In this document: in pieces, positions 15,115-23,228 of the stretch | How the letters are laid out: every line of letters begins with the position of its first letter | Numbering within the stretch: the stretch's first letter is position 1 | NCBI GenBank assembly: GCA_021324635.1 | Contig: JAJPIS010000061.1 | Coordinates: 1 to 64,000 of the forward strand | DNA: 64,000 bases | Origin: Gemmatimonadota bacterium | GTDB taxonomy: Bacteria; Gemmatimonadota; Gemmatimonadetes; Gemmatimonadales; Gemmatimonadaceae | Reading direction: 5' to 3' | Position numbers and translations under genes: made by a program | Notes under the pieces: model-generated | The model's database searches: none | The model's input: the letters and a program-made list of their open reading frames with translations, nothing else | What the model was told of the DNA's origin: nothing

Positions 15115-16041
15115 ATGGCCGCGACGCCCGACATGCCCGTGCCGTACGAGGCGCAGACGCCGCTCACCCGCTTCTTCGTCGGTCGGCGAAGCGAGGTGCG
15201 GGCCGGCTGGCGGCTCGTTCTCTACATCGTGATGGTGCTCGTGCTGAGCCGCGTGCTGCTGTTCGCGGCGCGCGCGATCCCGGCGCTCGGACGCGCGCTT
15301 CAGGGCGCGCCGGGCCTGCTCACACCGGGGCCCCAGATCCTCCAGGAGGCCATCCAGCTCGCAATCGTGCTCGTCCCGGCCGTCGTCATGGGGCGGCTCG
15401 AGCGCCGCTCCCTCGCGGACTACGGGCTGCCCGGCCGGGGCGCGTTCGGCAAGCACTTCTGGATCGGCATGCTCTGGGGGCTCTGCCTCATCAGCGCCGT
15501 CATCGGCGGTATCGCCCTCTTCCGCGGCTACGACATCAGCGGGCTCGCGCTCTCGGCGGGTGCGATCGTGGAGTACGGGCTCCTCTGGTTGGTTGGATTC
15601 ACTCTCGTGGGGTTCTTCGAGGAGTTCACGTTCCGCGGGTACACGCAATTCACGCTCGCATCGGGAGTCGGCTTCTGGCCGGCGGCGGTGATTCTCTCGG
15701 CGGCGTTCGGGGGCGCTCACCTGTTCAACCCGGGCGAGGGGTTGGTCGGCGCGCTTCAGGTCTTCCTGATCGCGATGTTCTTCTGCCTGACCCTGCGCCG
15801 CACGGGCACGCTCTGGTTCGCGATCGGAGTCCACGCGGCATTCGATTGGGGGGAGACGTTTCTCTACTCCGTCCCGAACAGCGGGCTCAGGGCCGCGGGC
15901 CATCTCTTCGCATCATCGCTGCACGGAGCGCCGTGGCTGACGGGCGGGAGTGTCGGCCCGGAAGGAAGCGTGATCTGCTTCGTCCTCGTGGCTCTGTCGA
16001 TCCTCCTGTTTGCTCGCCTCTATCCCCGCGCTCGCGCCTGA
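15115..16041 (+). CDS. CPBP-family intramembrane metalloprotease
   Basis: 308 residues, eight or so hydrophobic segments. The CPBP (Abi/Rce1-like) motifs are present: FEEFTFRGY (EExxxR), GGAHLFNPG and GVHAAFDWGE with its conserved His and Asp. The start ATG 15115 is preceded by TGAGGA with an 8-nt spacer, and the longer frame upstream overlaps the small membrane gene. The family includes prenyl-protein proteases and bacteriocin self-immunity proteins. The substrate here cannot be told. Confidence 0.9.
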   Translation: MAATPDMPVPYEAQTPLTRFFVGRRSEVRAGWRLVLYIVMVLVLSRVLLFAARAIPALGRALQGAPGLLTPGPQILQEAIQLAIVLVPAVVMGRLERRSLADYGLPGRGAFGKHFWIGMLWGLCLISAVIGGIALFRGYDISGLALSAGAIVEYGLLWLVGFTLVGFFEEFTFRGYTQFTLASGVGFWPAAVILSAAFGGAHLFNPGEGLVGALQVFLIAMFFCLTLRRTGTLWFAIGVHAAFDWGETFLYSVPNSGLRAAGHLFASSLHGAPWLTGGSVGPEGSVICFVLVALSILLFARLYPRARA

Positions 16042-16076
16042 GGGGACGCGAAGGCGAGGCCCGCATTGCAGCGGTG

Positions 16077-16105
16077 TTGACGGCGGTGGGTGAGCGGTCT
16101 ATCTT
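16077..16105 (+). promoter_or_regulatory. his operon promoter, sigma-70 type
   Basis: TTGACG at 16077-16082 and TATCTT at 16100-16105 are separated by exactly 17 nt. The expected transcription start is about 16111-16113, which coincides with the GTG of the leader peptide at 16113. This is the clearest housekeeping-type promoter of its region. Confidence 0.75.
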
Positions 16106-16112
16106 CGTTCCC

Positions 16113-16211
16113 GTGTCCGCCATCGTCCGTCATCACCATCACCATGTCCATCTCCACGGCCCACGGGCCGCGGCGAGGCATGCGCACATGGATGATCGGC
16201 GAATGATCTGA
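16113..16211 (+). CDS. hisL: histidine operon leader peptide
   Basis: 32 codons, GTG 16113 to TGA 16209-16211. The peptide begins MSAIVR and then has five consecutive His (residues 7-11), with further His at 13, 15, 23 and 25: nine His in 32 residues, seven of them in a nine-residue window. There is no ribosome-binding site and the predicted transcription start is at the start codon, so translation is probably leaderless. It lies 106 bp before hisG and just upstream of a terminator hairpin. This is the arrangement of the enteric his leader, where ribosome stalling at His codons senses charged tRNA-His. Confidence 0.8.
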   Translation: MSAIVRHHHHHVHLHGPRAAARHAHMDDRRMI

Positions 16212-16275
16212 GAGCACCGACTCCCACGACAGCTGCGCAAGACCGCCACGGCCCGTCCGAATCCGGATGGGCCGT
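16154..16275 (+). promoter_or_regulatory. his attenuator: competing RNA structures ahead of hisG
   Basis: Three pairings can be drawn. (a) A pause-type hairpin, 16154-16161 with 16166-16173 (7 of 8 pairs, 4-nt loop), overlapping His codons 13-15. (b) An antiterminator, 16163-16173 with 16246-16256 (10 of 11 pairs). (c) The terminator, 16248-16259 with 16264-16275. Pairing (b) excludes both (a) and (c). A ribosome stalled at the His run would cover the left arm of (a), free 16163-16173 and let (b) form, so that hisG is transcribed. With enough charged tRNA-His, (a) and (c) form. The pairings are read directly. The mechanism is inferred by analogy. Confidence 0.65.
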
Positions 16276-16278
16276 TTT
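16248..16278 (+). terminator. intrinsic terminator of the his leader
   Basis: A 12-bp stem (16248-16259 / 16264-16275, one G-U pair) closes a 4-nt loop and is followed by TTTT at 16275-16278. It ends 39 nt before the hisG start codon and is one of the few hairpins in this GC-rich window with a proper T run. Confidence 0.85.
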
Positions 16279-16317
16279 CGTTGTGCCGGATAGCTCCGCC
16301 CGCCCCTCGCCCCCGAC

Positions 16318-17211
16318 ATGCTTCGTATCGCCCTACCCAACAAAGGACGTCTCGCCGCCGACGCGCGGACTCTCTTCGCCGACGCCGGCCTCGAAGTCCG
16401 ATCGGCAGGCGAGCGCGCGCTCACGGCGTCACTCGGTGGCGAGTTCCGCGCGATCTTCGTCCGCGCACAGGATGTACCGGAGCTGGTGGCCGACGGCGCG
16501 GCCGACGCCGGCGTGACCGGCTGGGATCTCGTGTGCGAAGCCGAGCGCCGGCTCGACATGCTGCTCGACCTGGAGTTCGGCCGCTGTCGGATCGTCGTCG
16601 CCGCCCGTGACGAGAGCGGGATCCGATCCGTGGACGACCTCGCCGACGCGAGTCCGCCGCACCGGGTCGCGACCGTTTTTCCGCGGATCACGAGGCGCTT
16701 CTTCGGCGAGCGGGGTCGGCCGGTCGACATCGTGACCATCTCCGGCGCGGTGGAAGTCGCGCCCCACCTCGGCATCGCCGATGTCGTTGTCGACCTGACG
16801 TCGACCGGGTCGACGCTGGCGATGAACGGGCTCCGAGAGATCGGGACCATCCTCGAGTCGTCCGCGCGCCTCGTCGGGGCGCCGCAGGGGGCGTCGCTGC
16901 AATGCGCGTCCGCGCGACGCCCCGGCCTGCGCGACGGGCTGGATGACCTGACGACGGCGCTGAGCGCCGTGCTACGCGCCCGGGGTCAGCGCTACCTCAT
17001 GGCCAACGTCCCGCGTGCCGCGCTGGATCGAGTGAAGGCCGTGCTGCCGGGGCTCCGCGGCCCGACGGTTGTCGACGTGCTGAACGGCGGCCGCTTCGTG
17101 GCGGTGCACGCCGTGGTGCCCGCGGCAGGGGTCTACCGAACGATCTCGGCGCTCAAGGCGCTCGGCGGCGAAGGCATTCTCGTGACCCGCATCGAGCGAC
17201 TCACCCCATGA
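16318..17211 (+). CDS. hisG: ATP phosphoribosyltransferase, long form
   Basis: 297 residues. First step of histidine synthesis: ATP plus PRPP gives phosphoribosyl-ATP (cytosol). The start LRIALPNKGRL, the DAGVTGWDLV motif and the PRPP-binding segment VVDLTSTGSTL are typical. The length and the C-terminal domain (about 215-297, ending ALKALGGEGILVTRIE) show the HisG-long type, whose ACT-like tail binds histidine for feedback inhibition, so no HisZ is needed. The ATG is at 16318. The TGA overlaps the ATG of hisDC. Confidence 0.96.
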   Translation: MLRIALPNKGRLAADARTLFADAGLEVRSAGERALTASLGGEFRAIFVRAQDVPELVADGAADAGVTGWDLVCEAERRLDMLLDLEFGRCRIVVAARDESGIRSVDDLADASPPHRVATVFPRITRRFFGERGRPVDIVTISGAVEVAPHLGIADVVVDLTSTGSTLAMNGLREIGTILESSARLVGAPQGASLQCASARRPGLRDGLDDLTTALSAVLRARGQRYLMANVPRAALDRVKAVLPGLRGPTVVDVLNGGRFVAVHAVVPAAGVYRTISALKALGGEGILVTRIERLTP

Positions 17212-19733
17212 GCGCGACGATCCGCTCGGACCGGCCGGCGTGCGAGTCGGCGACCCCGCCAGTGGTGTTTCGCGTGCGCGGCGACGTTCTGGAGCTGTCG
17301 CCGGTCGACCGGCGAGCGCTCTTCGACCGCTCGACCGGGAGCGATGAGAGCGTCCGGGCAGCGGTGCGGGATATCGTCGACCGGGTGCGCCGCGAGGGCG
17401 ACGCCGCCCTCGTGGCACTCGCGCGGCAGTTCGAGGGGGTCGAGTTGACGGCCCTCGAAGTGACGCGTGCGGCCTGTGACGCGGCGCTGGCGGAGCTCGA
17501 CGGCCCCGCGCGTGCCGCACTGGTGCGCGCCGCCCGCAACATCCGCTCGGCGCACGCGGCGTGGATGCCGGTCGGCGGTGAGGTCGAGACGGAGCCGGGT
17601 GTCCGGGTGGAACGGCGCCCCGATCCGCTGGACCGCGTCGGCGTGTACGCGCCTGGCGGTCGCGCGAGCTATCCCTCGAGCGTGCTCATGGGCGCGATTC
17701 CCGCGCGTGTCGCCGGCGTGCGCGAGGTCGTGCTCTGTACGCCGCCGGGCCCGCACGGGACACCATCGCGCGTGATCCTCGCGGCGGCAGCGGTAGCGGA
17801 TGTCGACCGCGTGTTCGCGATCGGCGGGGCCGGCGCGATCGCCGCGATGGCGTTCGGGACGGGGTCGGTTCCCCGCGTCGACCGCATCGTCGGCCCGGGG
17901 AACGCGTACGTGGCCGAAGCGAAAAGTCAGGTCGCCGGGGTCGTCGCCACCGACGCGCCAGCCGGCCCGAGCGAGCTGCTCGTGCTGGCCGACGCTACGA
18001 CCGATGCGGATTTCGTGGCGGCCGAAGTGGTGGCCCAGGCCGAGCACGACCCGCGGGCGTCGGTCGTCATCGTCGTCGTCGGCGAACGGACCGGATCGTA
18101 CCCGGAGCACCTGGCGGCGGTCATCGCCAGTCGCGCTGACGCTGCCGCGCGGCGAGCGATCGTGCTCCAGGCGCTCGCCGAGAGGGGTGCACTGCTGACT
18201 GCCCGGAGTCTGGACGCCGCGGTCGCGTTCGCAAACGCGTGGGCGCCCGAGCACCTGCTGATCGCAGTGGAGAGTCCGGAGGCACTCGTCTCCCGGATCC
18301 GTGGGGCGGGGACCATCGCGGTCGGCCCGACATCCTCCGTCGTCTTCGGGGACTACATGACGGGCGCGAATCATGTGCTCCCGACGGGCGGGCTGGCGCG
18401 CAGCTACGGCGGCCTGTCGACGCTGGACTTCGTGCGGTGGACCACGATTCAACGCGTGAGTCGGAGCGCGGCGTCGGCAATGGCCGACGACGTCGCCCTG
18501 TTGGCCGAGGCTGAGCAGTTGCCCGCGCACGCCGCCGCCGCACGGGGCGCAGCCCACGCCGCCGTCCGGACCGGTTTCCGCGCGGCCTACGGCCGCATCG
18601 GGCGTTATGTCGGCGCAGGCGTTCCGGGTTCGCCGGTCGAGCTGAGCGACAACACGAACCTCTGGGGCGCACCGCCGTCGGCCGCCCGCGCGATCGAGGA
18701 CACGGGTGCCCGCGTGTCGCGCTACCCTGCGGCGTACGCCGACGCACTGGTCGCCGCGCTCGCGGACTACGCCGGCGTGAGCGTGGACATGGTCGTCACC
18801 GGCTGTGGATCGGACGACGTCCTCGACGCCGCAATGCGGGCGCTCGGCGAGCCCGGCGACCGCGTCGCGCTTCCCGACCCCACCTTTCCGATGGCGGCGA
18901 CGATCGCCCGCATGAACGGGCTGGTCCCCGTGGCCGTGCCGCTGACGGCCGAGCACACGGTCGATGTCGACGCACTCGCGGCCGTGGGCGCACGGCTCAT
19001 CTATCTCGCGACCCCGAGCAACCCGACAGGGATCGCATGTGCCCCCGACACCCTGCGGAGATTGACAGGGCGTGCGCCTGGATTCGTGATCGTCGACGAG
19101 GCATACGCGGAGTTCACAGGGCGCGACCGTGGGTGCGCGCTCGATCTCGTCGCGACGAGTCCGAGGCTCCTGGTCGTGCGCACGCTGTCCAAAGCCTGGG
19201 GTCTGGCTGGTCTCCGCATCGGTTACGCCGTCGGACAGCCTGCGCTCGTCGCCGAAGTCGAAAAAGCACGCGGCCCATACAAGGTGAGTGTGGTCGCGGA
19301 GCAGGCGGCGCTGGCTGCGCTGGCCCACGATCGGGCGTGGATGGCGAGATGTGTGGCGGCGGCGGCCGACGGTCGCGCCCGACTCGCGACAGCCCTCTCG
19401 GACCTGGGGCTCCGGACGCTGCCCTCGCACGCGAACTTCCTCCTCGTCCCCATCGAGGGGCCGACCGGAAGTGCCCGACGCTTCGCGTCGGCGCTGCGCG
19501 CCCTGGGGGTCGGGGTTCGGGCGTACGATGCGCTCACCGGGATCGGTGACGCGATCAGGGTCACCGTCGGGCCCTGGCCCATGATGGAGCGCCTCCTCGA
19601 GGCCGTGGCGACGGTCCTCGCGGCGGGCGACGCGGTCGTCGGGTCGGCAGATGCCGCGCGCTCGCCAGCGTCACGACGCCCGCCCGACACGCCGTCCTGC
19701 GAGTTCCCGCGAGCGGGAGCGGTCCAGCCGTGA
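17208..19733 (+). CDS. hisDC: histidinol dehydrogenase / histidinol-phosphate aminotransferase fusion
   Basis: 841 residues in one uninterrupted frame. Residues about 20-445 are HisD (histidinol to histidine, NAD, zinc): GPGNAYVAEAKSQVAG, PAGPSELLVLAD and the catalytic E348-H349 in PEHLLIAVE. Residues about 475-815 are HisC (imidazole-acetol phosphate to histidinol phosphate, PLP): LSDNTNLWG, ATPSNPTG, VIVDEAYAEF and the PLP lysine K662 in LSKAWGLAGLRIGYA. About 30 Ala/Gly/Arg-rich residues link them. The two steps are not consecutive: a phosphatase step lies between. ATGA overlap with hisG and GTGA overlap with hisH. Confidence 0.95.
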   Translation: MSATIRSDRPACESATPPVVFRVRGDVLELSPVDRRALFDRSTGSDESVRAAVRDIVDRVRREGDAALVALARQFEGVELTALEVTRAACDAALAELDGPARAALVRAARNIRSAHAAWMPVGGEVETEPGVRVERRPDPLDRVGVYAPGGRASYPSSVLMGAIPARVAGVREVVLCTPPGPHGTPSRVILAAAAVADVDRVFAIGGAGAIAAMAFGTGSVPRVDRIVGPGNAYVAEAKSQVAGVVATDAPAGPSELLVLADATTDADFVAAEVVAQAEHDPRASVVIVVVGERTGSYPEHLAAVIASRADAAARRAIVLQALAERGALLTARSLDAAVAFANAWAPEHLLIAVESPEALVSRIRGAGTIAVGPTSSVVFGDYMTGANHVLPTGGLARSYGGLSTLDFVRWTTIQRVSRSAASAMADDVALLAEAEQLPAHAAAARGAAHAAVRTGFRAAYGRIGRYVGAGVPGSPVELSDNTNLWGAPPSAARAIEDTGARVSRYPAAYADALVAALADYAGVSVDMVVTGCGSDDVLDAAMRALGEPGDRVALPDPTFPMAATIARMNGLVPVAVPLTAEHTVDVDALAAVGARLIYLATPSNPTGIACAPDTLRRLTGRAPGFVIVDEAYAEFTGRDRGCALDLVATSPRLLVVRTLSKAWGLAGLRIGYAVGQPALVAEVEKARGPYKVSVVAEQAALAALAHDRAWMARCVAAAADGRARLATALSDLGLRTLPSHANFLLVPIEGPTGSARRFASALRALGVGVRAYDALTGIGDAIRVTVGPWPMMERLLEAVATVLAAGDAVVGSADAARSPASRRPPDTPSCEFPRAGAVQP

Positions 19734-20437
19734 GCGGCCCGATCGTGAGCGGCCCGGCGCGGCGTCCGTCTCGAGTGGTGATCCTGGACCACGGATCCGG
19801 GAACATCCACTCGCTGGCCAAAGGTCTCCGGGCAGCGGGCGCCGAGCTCCGCATCGAGTCGCCGTCGGCCACTGCGCTCGATGCGGACCTGATCGTGCTC
19901 CCCGGCGTCGGTGCCTTCTCGGCGGCCGCCGAACGGCTCGCCGCGATCCGCACCCGGATGCGGGATGCGCTCGGGCGTGATGTCGCAGCGCTCGGGATCT
20001 GCCTCGGCATGCAACTCCTCTTCGAGGAGAGCGAGGAGGGGCCAGGCCGCGGCCTCGGCGTCCTCGCGGGGCGTGTGACGCGACTCGGCGCGGCCCGCGT
20101 GCCACACATGGGCTGGAACGCGGTGGAGCGCGCGCAGGGGTCGCCGTGGCCCGGAATGGGCTCGGACGATCCCGCGCTCGCCCGAGCCGGTCTCGTGGAG
20201 GCGTACTTTGCACACGGCTACGCCTGCCGTCCAACCGATCCGTCGTGCGTGACGGCGTGGACCTCCGTCGCGGGGGATCGGTTCCCGTCGGTCGTCCGAG
20301 CGGGCTCGGTCGTCGGTACGCAATTCCATCCCGAGAAGAGTGGGGCGCCGGGTCTCGAGTTCCTGCGGGCGGTCGTGGACGATGTTCGGCCCCGTGTCTG
20401 TCGCGCTGCCGGCAGCGCGTGGAGTGCCCCACGATGA
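19730..20437 (+). CDS. hisH: imidazole glycerol phosphate synthase, glutaminase subunit
   Basis: 235 residues. A class I glutamine amidotransferase that feeds ammonia to HisF. The catalytic Cys is in GICLGMQLLFE and the His-Glu pair in GTQFHPEKSG. VVILDHGSGNIHS near the N-terminus and PHMGWNAVE are HisH signatures. Start GTG 19730 (GTGA overlap with hisDC). The first about 14 residues and the last about 20 extend beyond the usual fold. Confidence 0.95.
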   Translation: MSGPIVSGPARRPSRVVILDHGSGNIHSLAKGLRAAGAELRIESPSATALDADLIVLPGVGAFSAAAERLAAIRTRMRDALGRDVAALGICLGMQLLFEESEEGPGRGLGVLAGRVTRLGAARVPHMGWNAVERAQGSPWPGMGSDDPALARAGLVEAYFAHGYACRPTDPSCVTAWTSVAGDRFPSVVRAGSVVGTQFHPEKSGAPGLEFLRAVVDDVRPRVCRAAGSAWSAPR

Positions 20438-21153
20438 TCGCGATCCCTGCCGTCGACGTGCGCGAAGGTGCCTGCGTCCAACTCGTGGGCGGGGTGCCCG
20501 GCGACGAGCGCGTGCGTATGCCCGATCCGGTCGCGGCCGCGGAGGGGTGGGCCCGGCTCGGCTTCCGACGGCTGCACGTCGTCGACCTCGATGCCGCACT
20601 CGGCACCGGCTCCAACGCGCCGACCATCCGGGCCGTCGTGGCGGCGAGCGCGATTCCGGCGCAGGTGGGGGGCGGCGTCCGTGGTGACGCGGATATCACG
20701 GACTGGCTCGCCGCGGGCGCCGCGTCGGTGATCATCGGCACGCGGGCGCTGGAGGAGCCGGAGTGGCTGGAGGGCATCGCCTGGCGCCATCCGGGACGCC
20801 TCGTCGTCGCGGCCGACGTGCGGGAGCGCGCGGTCGTCGTCCGCGGCTGGACACGTGCACTCCGACTCGATATCCACGCCGCCCTCCAGGCTCTCGCGCC
20901 ACTCCCGCTGGCAGGTGTGCTCGTCACTGCGGTCCACCGGGAGGGGCAGATGCGCGGTCCGGACGTGCGCCTCGTCGACCTGGTCGTGCGTGAATCCGCG
21001 GCCCCCGTGTATGCGGCCGGCGGTGTCGGGTCCCTGCGTGACCTCGACCGGCTCGCCGGGGCCGGCGTGGCCGGGGTGGTGATCGGGATGGCGCTGTACA
21101 CCGGCGCGCTGGACGCGCGCACGGTCGCCGAGGCATTCGGCGGTGGGCAATGA
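20434..21153 (+). CDS. hisA: ProFAR isomerase (phosphoribosylformimino-AICAR-P isomerase)
   Basis: 239 residues, (beta/alpha)8 barrel. It opens the ribose ring of ProFAR (Amadori rearrangement). The general base Asp is in AIPAVDVREG, the second Asp in VVAADVRERAVVVRGW, and phosphate-binding glycines in VGGGVRGDAD and AAGGVGSL. ATGA overlap with hisH at 20434 fixes the start, although the open frame runs further upstream. Confidence 0.95.
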   Translation: MIAIPAVDVREGACVQLVGGVPGDERVRMPDPVAAAEGWARLGFRRLHVVDLDAALGTGSNAPTIRAVVAASAIPAQVGGGVRGDADITDWLAAGAASVIIGTRALEEPEWLEGIAWRHPGRLVVAADVRERAVVVRGWTRALRLDIHAALQALAPLPLAGVLVTAVHREGQMRGPDVRLVDLVVRESAAPVYAAGGVGSLRDLDRLAGAGVAGVVIGMALYTGALDARTVAEAFGGGQ

Positions 21154-21722
21154 CGAGCGATGCGGGGCGGGACCCGAGCGCACCGATCGTGGTCGAGCGC
21201 CGGACGCGTGAGACAGCCGTCCGCGTCCAGGTCGCCGAGGGCACGCTCCTGGCCGACGCGCGCGCCGTCATCCGCACCGGAGAGGCCTTCCTCGACCACA
21301 TGCTCGTGACCCTCGCCCGGTACGCAGCGGTCGATCTCCGCATCGAAGCGTCGGGAGACCTCCGGCACCACCTGGTCGAAGACGTCGCGATCGCCGTCGG
21401 CACGGCGATCGCGCGCCATCAACCTGCCAACAGCGCACGCTACGGCCACTGGACGATCCCGATGGACGATGCTCTGGTCGAGGTCGCGCTCGACCTCGGC
21501 GGACGGCCGTACTATCGCGGCCCCCTCCCGAGCCGACTGTACGATCACTGGATGCGGTCCTTCTCGGACCATGCGCGAGCCACGCTCCACGTGCGGGTCG
21601 TCCGCGGACGCGACCGACACCACGTGATCGAGGCGGCGTTCAAGGGCCTCGGGGTTGCACTGCGCCAGGCGTTGTGCGCCACCCCGACGACCATGAGCAC
21701 GAAGGGGCCGGTGACATGGTGA
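21150..21722 (+). CDS. hisB: imidazoleglycerol-phosphate dehydratase (monofunctional)
   Basis: 190 residues. It dehydrates IGP to imidazole-acetol phosphate with two Mn ions. The paired metal motifs are kept, FLDHML, RHHLVED (usually DDHHTVED) and DRHHVIEAAFK, as is RYGHWTIPMDDAL. The sequence is more divergent than the other His enzymes but keeps the ligands. There is no histidinol-phosphate phosphatase domain, so that step must come from elsewhere. ATGA overlap with hisA. Confidence 0.92.
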   Translation: MTSDAGRDPSAPIVVERRTRETAVRVQVAEGTLLADARAVIRTGEAFLDHMLVTLARYAAVDLRIEASGDLRHHLVEDVAIAVGTAIARHQPANSARYGHWTIPMDDALVEVALDLGGRPYYRGPLPSRLYDHWMRSFSDHARATLHVRVVRGRDRHHVIEAAFKGLGVALRQALCATPTTMSTKGPVTW

Positions 21723-21768
21723 CGTGGTCCGCGGAGTCGCGCACGGCGGGAGCACCGCGGCCGTGCTG

Positions 21769-22602
21769 ATGCGACGCCTCGTCGTCTGCCTCGACGTGGA
21801 CGCGGGTCGGGTCGTGAAGGGGACCCGGTTTCAGCGGCTCCGCGAGATCGGCGATCCGGTCGTGCTCGCGGAGCGGTACGCCAGGCAGGGAGCGGACGAG
21901 ATCGTGCTCCTCGACATCTCGGCCACAGCGGCACACCGGACGCCCATCCACGGTGCCATGGCGGAGGTCGTGCGCCGGGCCGCCGAGCGGTTGTGGGTAC
22001 CGCTCACCGTAGGCGGTGGGATTCGGTCGGTGGAGGACGTCGACGCGGCCCTGCGGGCCGGCGCCGACAAAGTCGCCATCAACTCGGCGGCCGTGCGTCG
22101 ACCGGCCGTGCTGACCGAGGCGGCGACACGATTCGGCGCCCAGTGTGTCGTCGCGAGCATCGATGCTCGACGCGCACCGGTAGCCGCGGCCGGCGATGCG
22201 GGGCCCGACCCGTGGCGCGTCGTCGTGCGCGGCGGGCGGACGCCCACGAACCTTGGCGCGGTCGACTGGGCACGCACGTGCGTCGGGCATGGCGCCGGTG
22301 AGCTGCTGGTGACGAGCATCGACGCCGACGGCACCCGCGGCGGCTACGATCTCGACCTCACCCGGACGATCGCGGACGCCGTGACTGTCCCGGTGGTCGC
22401 CTCGGGGGGCGCCGGCAGCGCGGCCGACGTGTGCGCCGTGCTTCAGCAGGGGCGCGCCGACGCGGCACTCGTCGCAGGCATCGTCCACGATGGCGTCGAG
22501 ACGGTCTCGGGCCTCAAGCGGGCGATGGCGGCTGCAGGGCTGCCGGTGCGCGGGTGGCCGGCCACTCGACCGGCGCGGGCCGAGGTGGGGCCGACCCCGT
22601 GA
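21769..22602 (+). CDS. hisF: imidazole glycerol phosphate synthase, cyclase subunit
   Basis: 277 residues from ATG 21769, (beta/alpha)8 barrel. It makes IGP and AICAR from PRFAR and ammonia supplied by HisH. Catalytic Asp residues lie in VVCLDVDAGRVVKG and TSIDADGTRGGYD, with VGGGIRSVED and VASGGAGSA binding phosphate. In-frame GTGs at 21724 (2 nt after the hisB stop) and 21763 are alternative starts. The ATG matches the conserved family N-terminus best. An insertion of about 10 residues (ARRAPVAAAGDAG) follows the VVASID strand. Confidence 0.93.
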   Translation: MRRLVVCLDVDAGRVVKGTRFQRLREIGDPVVLAERYARQGADEIVLLDISATAAHRTPIHGAMAEVVRRAAERLWVPLTVGGGIRSVEDVDAALRAGADKVAINSAAVRRPAVLTEAATRFGAQCVVASIDARRAPVAAAGDAGPDPWRVVVRGGRTPTNLGAVDWARTCVGHGAGELLVTSIDADGTRGGYDLDLTRTIADAVTVPVVASGGAGSAADVCAVLQQGRADAALVAGIVHDGVETVSGLKRAMAAAGLPVRGWPATRPARAEVGPTP

Positions 22603-23228
22603 GCTGGACGGAAGTGCTCGACCCGGGCACCCTCGATTTCGGCAAAGCCGGTGGGCGGATCACGGTGGTGACGCAGGACGCCGCCACGGGCGCCGTGCTC
22701 ATGGTCGCCCAGGCCGATCGTGAGGCGCTCGAGCGCACGCTGGCGACCGGAGAGATGCACTACACCTCGCGCACACGCGGCCTGTGGCACAAGGGTGCGA
22801 CGAGCGGGAACCGGCAACGAGTCGTCTCGCTCACAACCGACTGCGATCGGGACGCAGTACTGGCGCGCGTCCGTCCGATGGGTCCCACATGCCACGCCGG
22901 CCCGATGTCGTGCTTCGGCGCTGTGGCCCTGCACGCCGACGCGGTCGCTGACCTGGACGGCACGGTCGACGCCCGCGCCGAGGCGCTGGAAGACGGTGCG
23001 AGCTACACGCGGCGCCTACTCGCCGATCGGAACCTGCGGGTGAAGAAGCTGGGCGAAGAGACGGCTGAACTGGTCCTTGCCTGCGCAGACGGCGATGCAC
23101 GGCGCGCCTGCGAGGAGGCTGCCGACGTCATCTACCACCTACTCGTCGCCCTGCACGGCGCGGGCGGCGACTGGCGGCAGGTGCAACGCATCCTGGCCGC
23201 CCGGGCCGCCCGCGCCCCCGGCGCGTGA
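22599..23228 (+). CDS. hisIE: bifunctional phosphoribosyl-AMP cyclohydrolase / phosphoribosyl-ATP pyrophosphatase
   Basis: 209 residues from GTG 22599 (GTGA overlap with hisF). HisI half (about 1-115): GLWHKGATSGN, then zinc/Mg ligands in TTDCDRDAVL and GPTCHAGPMSCF. HisE half (about 125-205): RVKKLGEETAELVLA and EEAADVIYHLLVAL, the helical MazG-like metal site. It carries out steps 2 and 3 of the pathway. Last gene of the operon. The stop lies inside a duplicated 17-bp palindromic unit. Confidence 0.95.
   Translation: MSWTEVLDPGTLDFGKAGGRITVVTQDAATGAVLMVAQADREALERTLATGEMHYTSRTRGLWHKGATSGNRQRVVSLTTDCDRDAVLARVRPMGPTCHAGPMSCFGAVALHADAVADLDGTVDARAEALEDGASYTRRLLADRNLRVKKLGEETAELVLACADGDARRACEEAADVIYHLLVALHGAGGDWRQVQRILAARAARAPGA

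Follow-up and report, generated by a model that had tools for sequence, protein, structure and literature searches.

Sequence comparison and RNA folding indicate that the leader of the histidine biosynthesis operon in the window (the whole 64,000-nucleotide stretch of Gemmatimonadota DNA analysed here) is very probably a ribosome-mediated transcription attenuator, one of a set of similar attenuators predicted in this phylum. A short open reading frame (ORF) rich in codons for the product of the pathway precedes the operon, an intrinsic terminator lies between this ORF and the first gene, and structural prediction gives a mutually exclusive antiterminator (pairing 1:2 versus 2:3 versus 3:4) whose strand 1 could be masked by a stalled ribosome.

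Anatomy of the leader

The downstream his operon is complete and runs on the forward strand in the order hisG-hisDC-hisH-hisA-hisB-hisF-hisIE, as assigned by Pfam. hisG (16318–17211; HisG and HisG_C) is the first gene of the operon thought to be regulated, and the hisD-hisC fusion, hisH, hisA, hisB, hisF and hisIE occupy 17208–23228. HisD and HisC are fused in a single 841-aa ORF (17208–19733; Histidinol_dh at 41–446, Aminotran_1_2 at 477–800). Upstream of hisG, on the same strand, the promoter, His-rich frame and terminator named in the original prediction could all be located. The sigma-70-like promoter (16077–16105) comprises a −35 element TTGACG (16077–16082), a 17-bp spacer and a −10 element TATCTT (16100–16105), and is the only such match in 600 bp, where shuffled sequences give 0.0 ± 0.2. 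The leader ORF (hisL, 16113–16211) reads from GTG at 16113 to TGA at 16209–16211 and encodes MSAIVRHHHHHVHLHGPRAAARHAHMDDRRMI, with nine His among its 32 codons, five of them in a row, as can be read directly from the sequence; relatives also have a His-rich ORF. The control codons (16131–16157) are His 7–11 (16131–16145), His 13 (16149–16151) and His 15 (16155–16157), and six His in seven codons are found in 2 of 850 tiles of the window, both at this leader. The terminator (3:4; 16248–16282), identified by hairpin search and covariation, has a 12-bp stem (16248–16259/16264–16275), an AATC loop and a TTTCGTT tail, and is the only hairpin of at least 8 bp with a T tract found in the window.

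The competing pairing required some revision. Originally described as an 11-bp helix between 16163–16173 and 16246–16256, it does exist, but only 10 of the 11 pairs are standard, the remaining one being a C·A mismatch; the helix extends to 16163–16175/16244–16256, with 12 of 13 positions paired. Its arms, assigned by pairing and covariation analysis, are strand 2 (ACGGGCCGCGGCG, 16163–16175), which lies within the ORF, and strand 3 (CGCCACGGCCCGT, 16244–16256), which overlaps the 5′ arm of the terminator. To the elements listed in the original prediction we add a third hairpin, the conserved 1:2 'protector', in which strand 1 (CGGCC, 16157–16161) pairs with 16166–16170 in strand 2.

A further point, absent from the original prediction, is the predicted leaderless nature of the leader mRNA. 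The −10 element ends 7 nt before the GTG, with the start codon at about +1, and its position puts the predicted transcription start (about 16112–16114) on the GTG, such that the mRNA would begin with its start codon. This predicted start is upstream of 16131, a start downstream of that position having been named beforehand as evidence against attenuation. Among the leaders collected below, TTGAC is present at −35 in 89 of 105 (counted from the leader table), mostly with a 17- or 18-bp spacer. Most leaders also have a TANNNT-like −10 just upstream of the start codon; the promoter search admitted only 4–10 nt between these two, so this distance is partly set by design while the quality of the match is not.

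Conservation upstream of hisG

The window genome (G000) falls in one family with G001–G035, and the named hisG relatives are labelled Gemmatimonadota, mostly Gemmatimonadaceae. If the leader is functional, as the original prediction reasoned, the hisG upstream regions of relatives should keep the His codons, and they do: a His-containing leader ORF precedes hisG in 28 of the 29 genome relatives with hisG upstream DNA (one of the 28, L010, has four His codons only), and a His-rich ORF does so in 77/77 of the named loci with enough upstream DNA (80 named loci in all), the two sets overlapping in part. The sole exception among the 29 genome relatives, L013 (G032), has a hisG without a leader; other sequence lies directly upstream of this hisG, which suggests a rearrangement. 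Elsewhere, a split his operon (G117:C210) has a His leader in front of each of hisC and hisG (L142 and L143).

The leaders have in common an HHxHHxHGPTGRG-like peptide, a GGCCCGTC/GACGGGCC terminator and a final His codon that directly adjoins strand 1. Counted from the start codon through the T tract, most are 134–171 nt long. The final His codon has its last nucleotide exactly 6 nt upstream of alignment column 65, which is the A of ACGGG in strand 2, in 46 of 68 aligned leaders. A terminator is nearly always found 3′ of the His-rich ORF in the relatives, and a GC-rich hairpin with a T tract is present in 102 of 103 testable leaders, the exception being L103. The CAAX-protease gene that lies upstream in the window is absent upstream of every other hisG locus (L002–L110), and the element is thus conserved although gene order on that side is not.

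Covariation and folding

Covariation among the relatives, also called for by the original prediction, was found above all shuffles for 1:2 and 3:4 taken together: the 68 leaders contain 38 double-change cells as opposed to 14.9 after shuffling (0/500 as high), with a covariation score of 0.179 compared to 0.120 (0/500). The 1:2 helix is paired in 90% of cells and has two pairs with double changes. The core of 2:3 (columns 66–71/161–166) is paired in 87–99% of leaders and varies little; for 2:3 alone in the His leaders there are six double-changed pairs, with 80 of 500 shuffles as high, and a score reached by 1 of 500. When Tyr, Phe and Thr leaders (see below) are added to the His leaders, the 2:3 score is 0.148 versus 0.084 shuffled (0/500). 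Strands 2/3/4 of these added leaders are typically CACGGG/CCCGTG/CACGGG, the His version being GACGGG/CCCGTC/GACGGG. None of these shuffles allows for kinship among the leaders, and the figures are therefore support for the structure and not proof of it.

Folded without a ribosome, the window leader gives P(1:2) of 1.0 and P(3:4) of 0.98. In a transcript that stops at strand 3 and carries a ribosome footprint on His7–His13, P(2:3) becomes 0.98–1.0; with the ribosome stalled at His15, part of strand 2 is covered and the terminator forms again. In the stalled state 2:3 forms in 66 of the 68 leaders versus 12 when the strand 1–2 segment is shuffled. Masking strand 1 in the full-length leader leaves the terminator as the favoured structure at equilibrium (mean P(3:4) of 0.83 over 68 leaders), and antitermination must therefore be kinetic. 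When the ribosome sits on the stop codon of the window leader and the transcript goes no further than strand 3, equilibrium prefers 2:3 (0.99). The stop codon is 33 nt past strand 2, too distant for a ribosome there to mask that strand; in the fed state, 1:2 therefore has to form first.

We propose that transcription would begin at or next to the GTG, and that the ribosome would load at the 5′ end of the mRNA without a Shine-Dalgarno site. When His-tRNA is ample, the ribosome would clear the ORF, 1:2 would pair and the 3:4 terminator would form, stopping transcription before hisG. When His-tRNA is short, the ribosome would stall on the His codons, covering or disrupting strand 1 together with its surrounding stem; strand 2 could then pair with the emerging strand 3, on kinetics that we infer, and RNA polymerase would read into hisG–hisIE. 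In the wider set of Gemmatimonadota attenuators, the control codons (His, Tyr, Phe, Thr) would match the downstream enzyme. The proposal of his attenuation in Gemmatimonadota has strong comparative support, in that His-codon enrichment is near-universal in the loci examined, the pairings covary and the folding switches as the model predicts.

Distribution of the His leader

A covariance model trained on His leaders only (R1) matches 198 of 395 Gemmatimonadota genomes at E ≤ 0.01, in families f1, f2, f4, f5 and others, a total that is an upper bound since weak matches look like noise where inspected; most f1 matches are far below the cut-off. R1 also matches about 50 of 146 Myxococcota genomes at E < 1e-16, and this version of the leader is common to Gemmatimonadota, Myxococcaceae and Candidatus Eisenbacteria. 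Myxococcus xanthus is among the carriers, with its hisG leader at L071. Four weak matches (L265, L266, L268 and L269; Myxococcus, Corallococcus and Eisenbacteria; E 0.005 to 0.23) contain no leader-like ORF and were set aside as noise. In a quick HisG tree with a midpoint root only, the Myxococcaceae and Archangiaceae rows, apart from the long row L103, form one starred clade (99), which adjoins Gemmatimonadaceae and Eisenbacteria, with the f4 and f5 Gemmatimonadota on the other side. This arrangement fits a transfer, in either direction, of the operon together with its leader. Two records are probably mis-binned or mislabelled: the hisG of a Candidatus Kuenenia record (L053) groups within Gemmatimonadaceae, and that of a Comamonas record (L066) within Myxococcaceae.

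Related leaders with other control codons

Besides His leaders, R1 matched Thr-rich leaders before aspartokinase/homoserine dehydrogenase (E 1.2e-10 and 5.5e-9) and Tyr-rich leaders before Phe-4-hydroxylase or DAHP synthase (E 1.9e-8 to 7e-6). A further model (R2), built mainly from these non-His leaders, together with hand inspection, gave about 65 non-His leaders, including Phe-rich ones before prephenate dehydratase, an abundance that is not independent evidence, leaders of this kind having gone into the training of R2. That training does not, in contrast, account for the way Tyr and Phe divide by gene. Leaders before Phe-hydroxylase contain 13.9% Tyr and 1.0% Phe, those before DAHP synthase 14.3% Tyr and 5.8% Phe, and the three before prephenate dehydratase 13.8% Phe and 2.5% Tyr, while Thr makes up 36% of the three aspartokinase–homoserine dehydrogenase leaders. 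NCBIfam/Pfam assignments of downstream genes in the examples are phenylalanine 4-monooxygenase, 3-deoxy-7-phosphoheptulonate synthase, prephenate dehydratase, bifunctional aspartate kinase/homoserine dehydrogenase I and chorismate mutase-prephenate dehydrogenase. Tyr codons with almost no Phe codons before phenylalanine-4-hydroxylase (L191, L141, L196, L199–L201 and others) suggest that this enzyme serves tyrosine biosynthesis and not Phe breakdown; in the window's genome the hydroxylase was not found with a single relative's protein as query, a weak probe. Some R3 matches (L299, L303–L309, L315) have no control-codon leader, and a fixed sequence pattern for the core proved noisy and missed the window's own leader.

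Two other leaders were also noted. In the window's genome (L316, upstream of position 1501; G000:C4:59587), a Tyr/Trp/Phe-rich leader MVTVSVRRAAALGYWFSGFGYPYRQGAEG... precedes DAHP synthase. It has TTGCGG/TACTGT upstream, is apparently leaderless and shows a four-strand attenuator architecture with a CGGCCCCCGG/CCGGGGGCCG terminator, and, as read from the sequence, strands 2 (GGGGGCCG) and 3 of this leader match each other. The other, seen in one genome (L301, G095:C1:3454248), is a Leu-rich ORF MIPLTALLLGLLILPVLLLG... followed by a GAGGCCCTCTCCCC terminator before a leuA-like gene; it has a different core and no clear leaderless promoter, and is a possible Leu attenuator.

How the His, Tyr, Phe and Thr leaders came to resemble one another allows two readings. 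We lean, if modestly, towards one homologous and modular leaderless family in Gemmatimonadota, in which a core (strand 2 in frame as ACG GGN CGN, strand 3 as GGCCCGT and strand 4 as ACGGGCC) would have had its control codons exchanged and so come to respond to His, Tyr, Tyr/Phe, Phe or Thr, and in which the His version would have moved between Gemmatimonadota, Myxococcaceae and Candidatus Eisenbacteria with the his operon. Alternatively, and as a possibility to be taken seriously even if we would not bet on it, the Tyr, Phe and Thr leaders could be convergent and form no family, a GC-rich phylum defaulting to GGCCCGT/ACGGGCC hairpins (GGCCCGTN..ACGGGCC); the his attenuator would be unaffected. 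Convergence is suggested by a core that is short and GC-rich, by the dependence of the R2 matches on training, and by the different cores of the Leu-rich leader before leuA and of the window genome's own aromatic leader. Against it, the Thr and Tyr leaders were found by the His-only model R1 at the low E-values given above, and promoter-to-start spacing, ORF length and other spacings agree. Such terminators are moreover not abundant, the window holding only one strong example. Finally, strand 2 keeps the same codon phase in 21 of 24 mixed leaders, which favours common ancestry of the codon-swapped set, an ancestry that we regard as likely.

Alternative explanations for the his leader

For the window leader itself, we think it improbable that regulation takes another route, whether ribosome-dependent Rho termination, control of hisG at the level of translation or sensing of something other than His-tRNA, the hairpins then being of secondary importance. 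Some actinobacterial leader-peptide systems do lack intrinsic terminators or do not behave as classical attenuators on mutation (PMC1262725), and the T tract in the window is short and broken; however, the hairpin with its T tract is found in all but one of the testable leaders and covaries, strands 1–4 are arranged as in classical attenuators, the control codons adjoining strand 1, and in several gene classes the choice of control codon goes with the product. It is scarcely credible that the terminator merely ends the upstream CAAX-protease gene, with the His-rich frame a chance intergenic feature. This gene is on the same strand, and its stop (16039–16041) is about 200 nt before the hairpin, but at L002–L110, where it is missing, leader, promoter and terminator are present at similar spacing in nearly all; in addition, the 5′ arm of the terminator is complementary to a segment inside the ORF, and the clustering of His codons is unique in the window. 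Assignment of the terminator to the upstream gene was rejected for want of synteny. A T-box or metabolite riboswitch has hardly any likelihood. The his genes of Firmicutes and Actinobacteria are regulated by T-boxes (PMC9413887), but here the sequence codes for a peptide whose His codons are conserved, and no Rfam family, the T-box covariance model included, matches the window at gathering score, with nothing relevant at E ≤ 10.

Comparison with known attenuators

Like the enterobacterial his attenuator (RF00514), the window leader has a His-codon run in a short ORF, alternation of the 1:2/2:3/3:4 type and an intrinsic terminator before hisG, and the same response to His-tRNA would be expected. 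Unlike it, the leader is predicted to be leaderless and lacks a Shine-Dalgarno site, its ORF extends through strand 2, and it belongs to a different phylum. The Rfam model RF00514 (His_leader) had no match in the window at gathering score and none up to E = 10 for 16060–16340. The original prediction had spoken of independent use of the same logic, which accounts for the leader in part only. No Rfam family, the enteric His_leader included, matches it, and nor is it an invention confined to one lineage, the leader being present in Myxococcaceae and Eisenbacteria as well and its core recurring with other control codons within the phylum.

Most descriptions of amino-acid attenuators come from Proteobacteria, Actinobacteria and some Firmicutes (PMC2965389, PMC9413887), and an origin in gamma-proteobacteria with very few transfers has been suggested (PMC3766115). 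His leader peptides of Firmicutes, before his operons (PMC9413887) and before hisS/hisZ (PMC2965389), are likewise His attenuators outside Proteobacteria and were judged acquired or separately evolved (PMC9413887, PMC2965389); they belong to different lineages, and neither paper mentions Gemmatimonadota or Myxococcota. Our literature search found no paper linking Gemmatimonas or Myxococcus with his attenuation, though earlier computational surveys may list some. Closer in their mode of initiation are C. glutamicum ilvBNC, transcribed from at or next to the leader start codon (PMC11857589), and the leaderless leader peptides trpL, leuL and ilvL of S. lividans (PMC8079986) and trpL of S. meliloti (PMC7298713), all of which share amino-acid-specific codons and attenuator hairpins with the leaders described here. 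In the accessible parts of these three sources, the known leaderless leaders are for Leu, Trp, Ilv, Met and Thr in Actinobacteria and for Trp in Alphaproteobacteria, none being for His, and a shared interchangeable core is not described for them. The window leader thus appears to be a his attenuator in a lineage for which our literature search turned up none, one that is predicted to be leaderless and that seems to belong to a codon-swapped set.

His attenuators that occur throughout the class in Gemmatimonadota and are also found in Myxococcaceae would widen the known range of this regulation and offer a likely case of an operon moving together with its RNA switch. The codon-swapped set amounts to a natural experiment, in which a similar scaffold carries different control codons before matching enzymes. 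As such, it backs the proposed mechanism without experiment, and illustrates a way in which evolution could redirect an attenuator to another amino acid.
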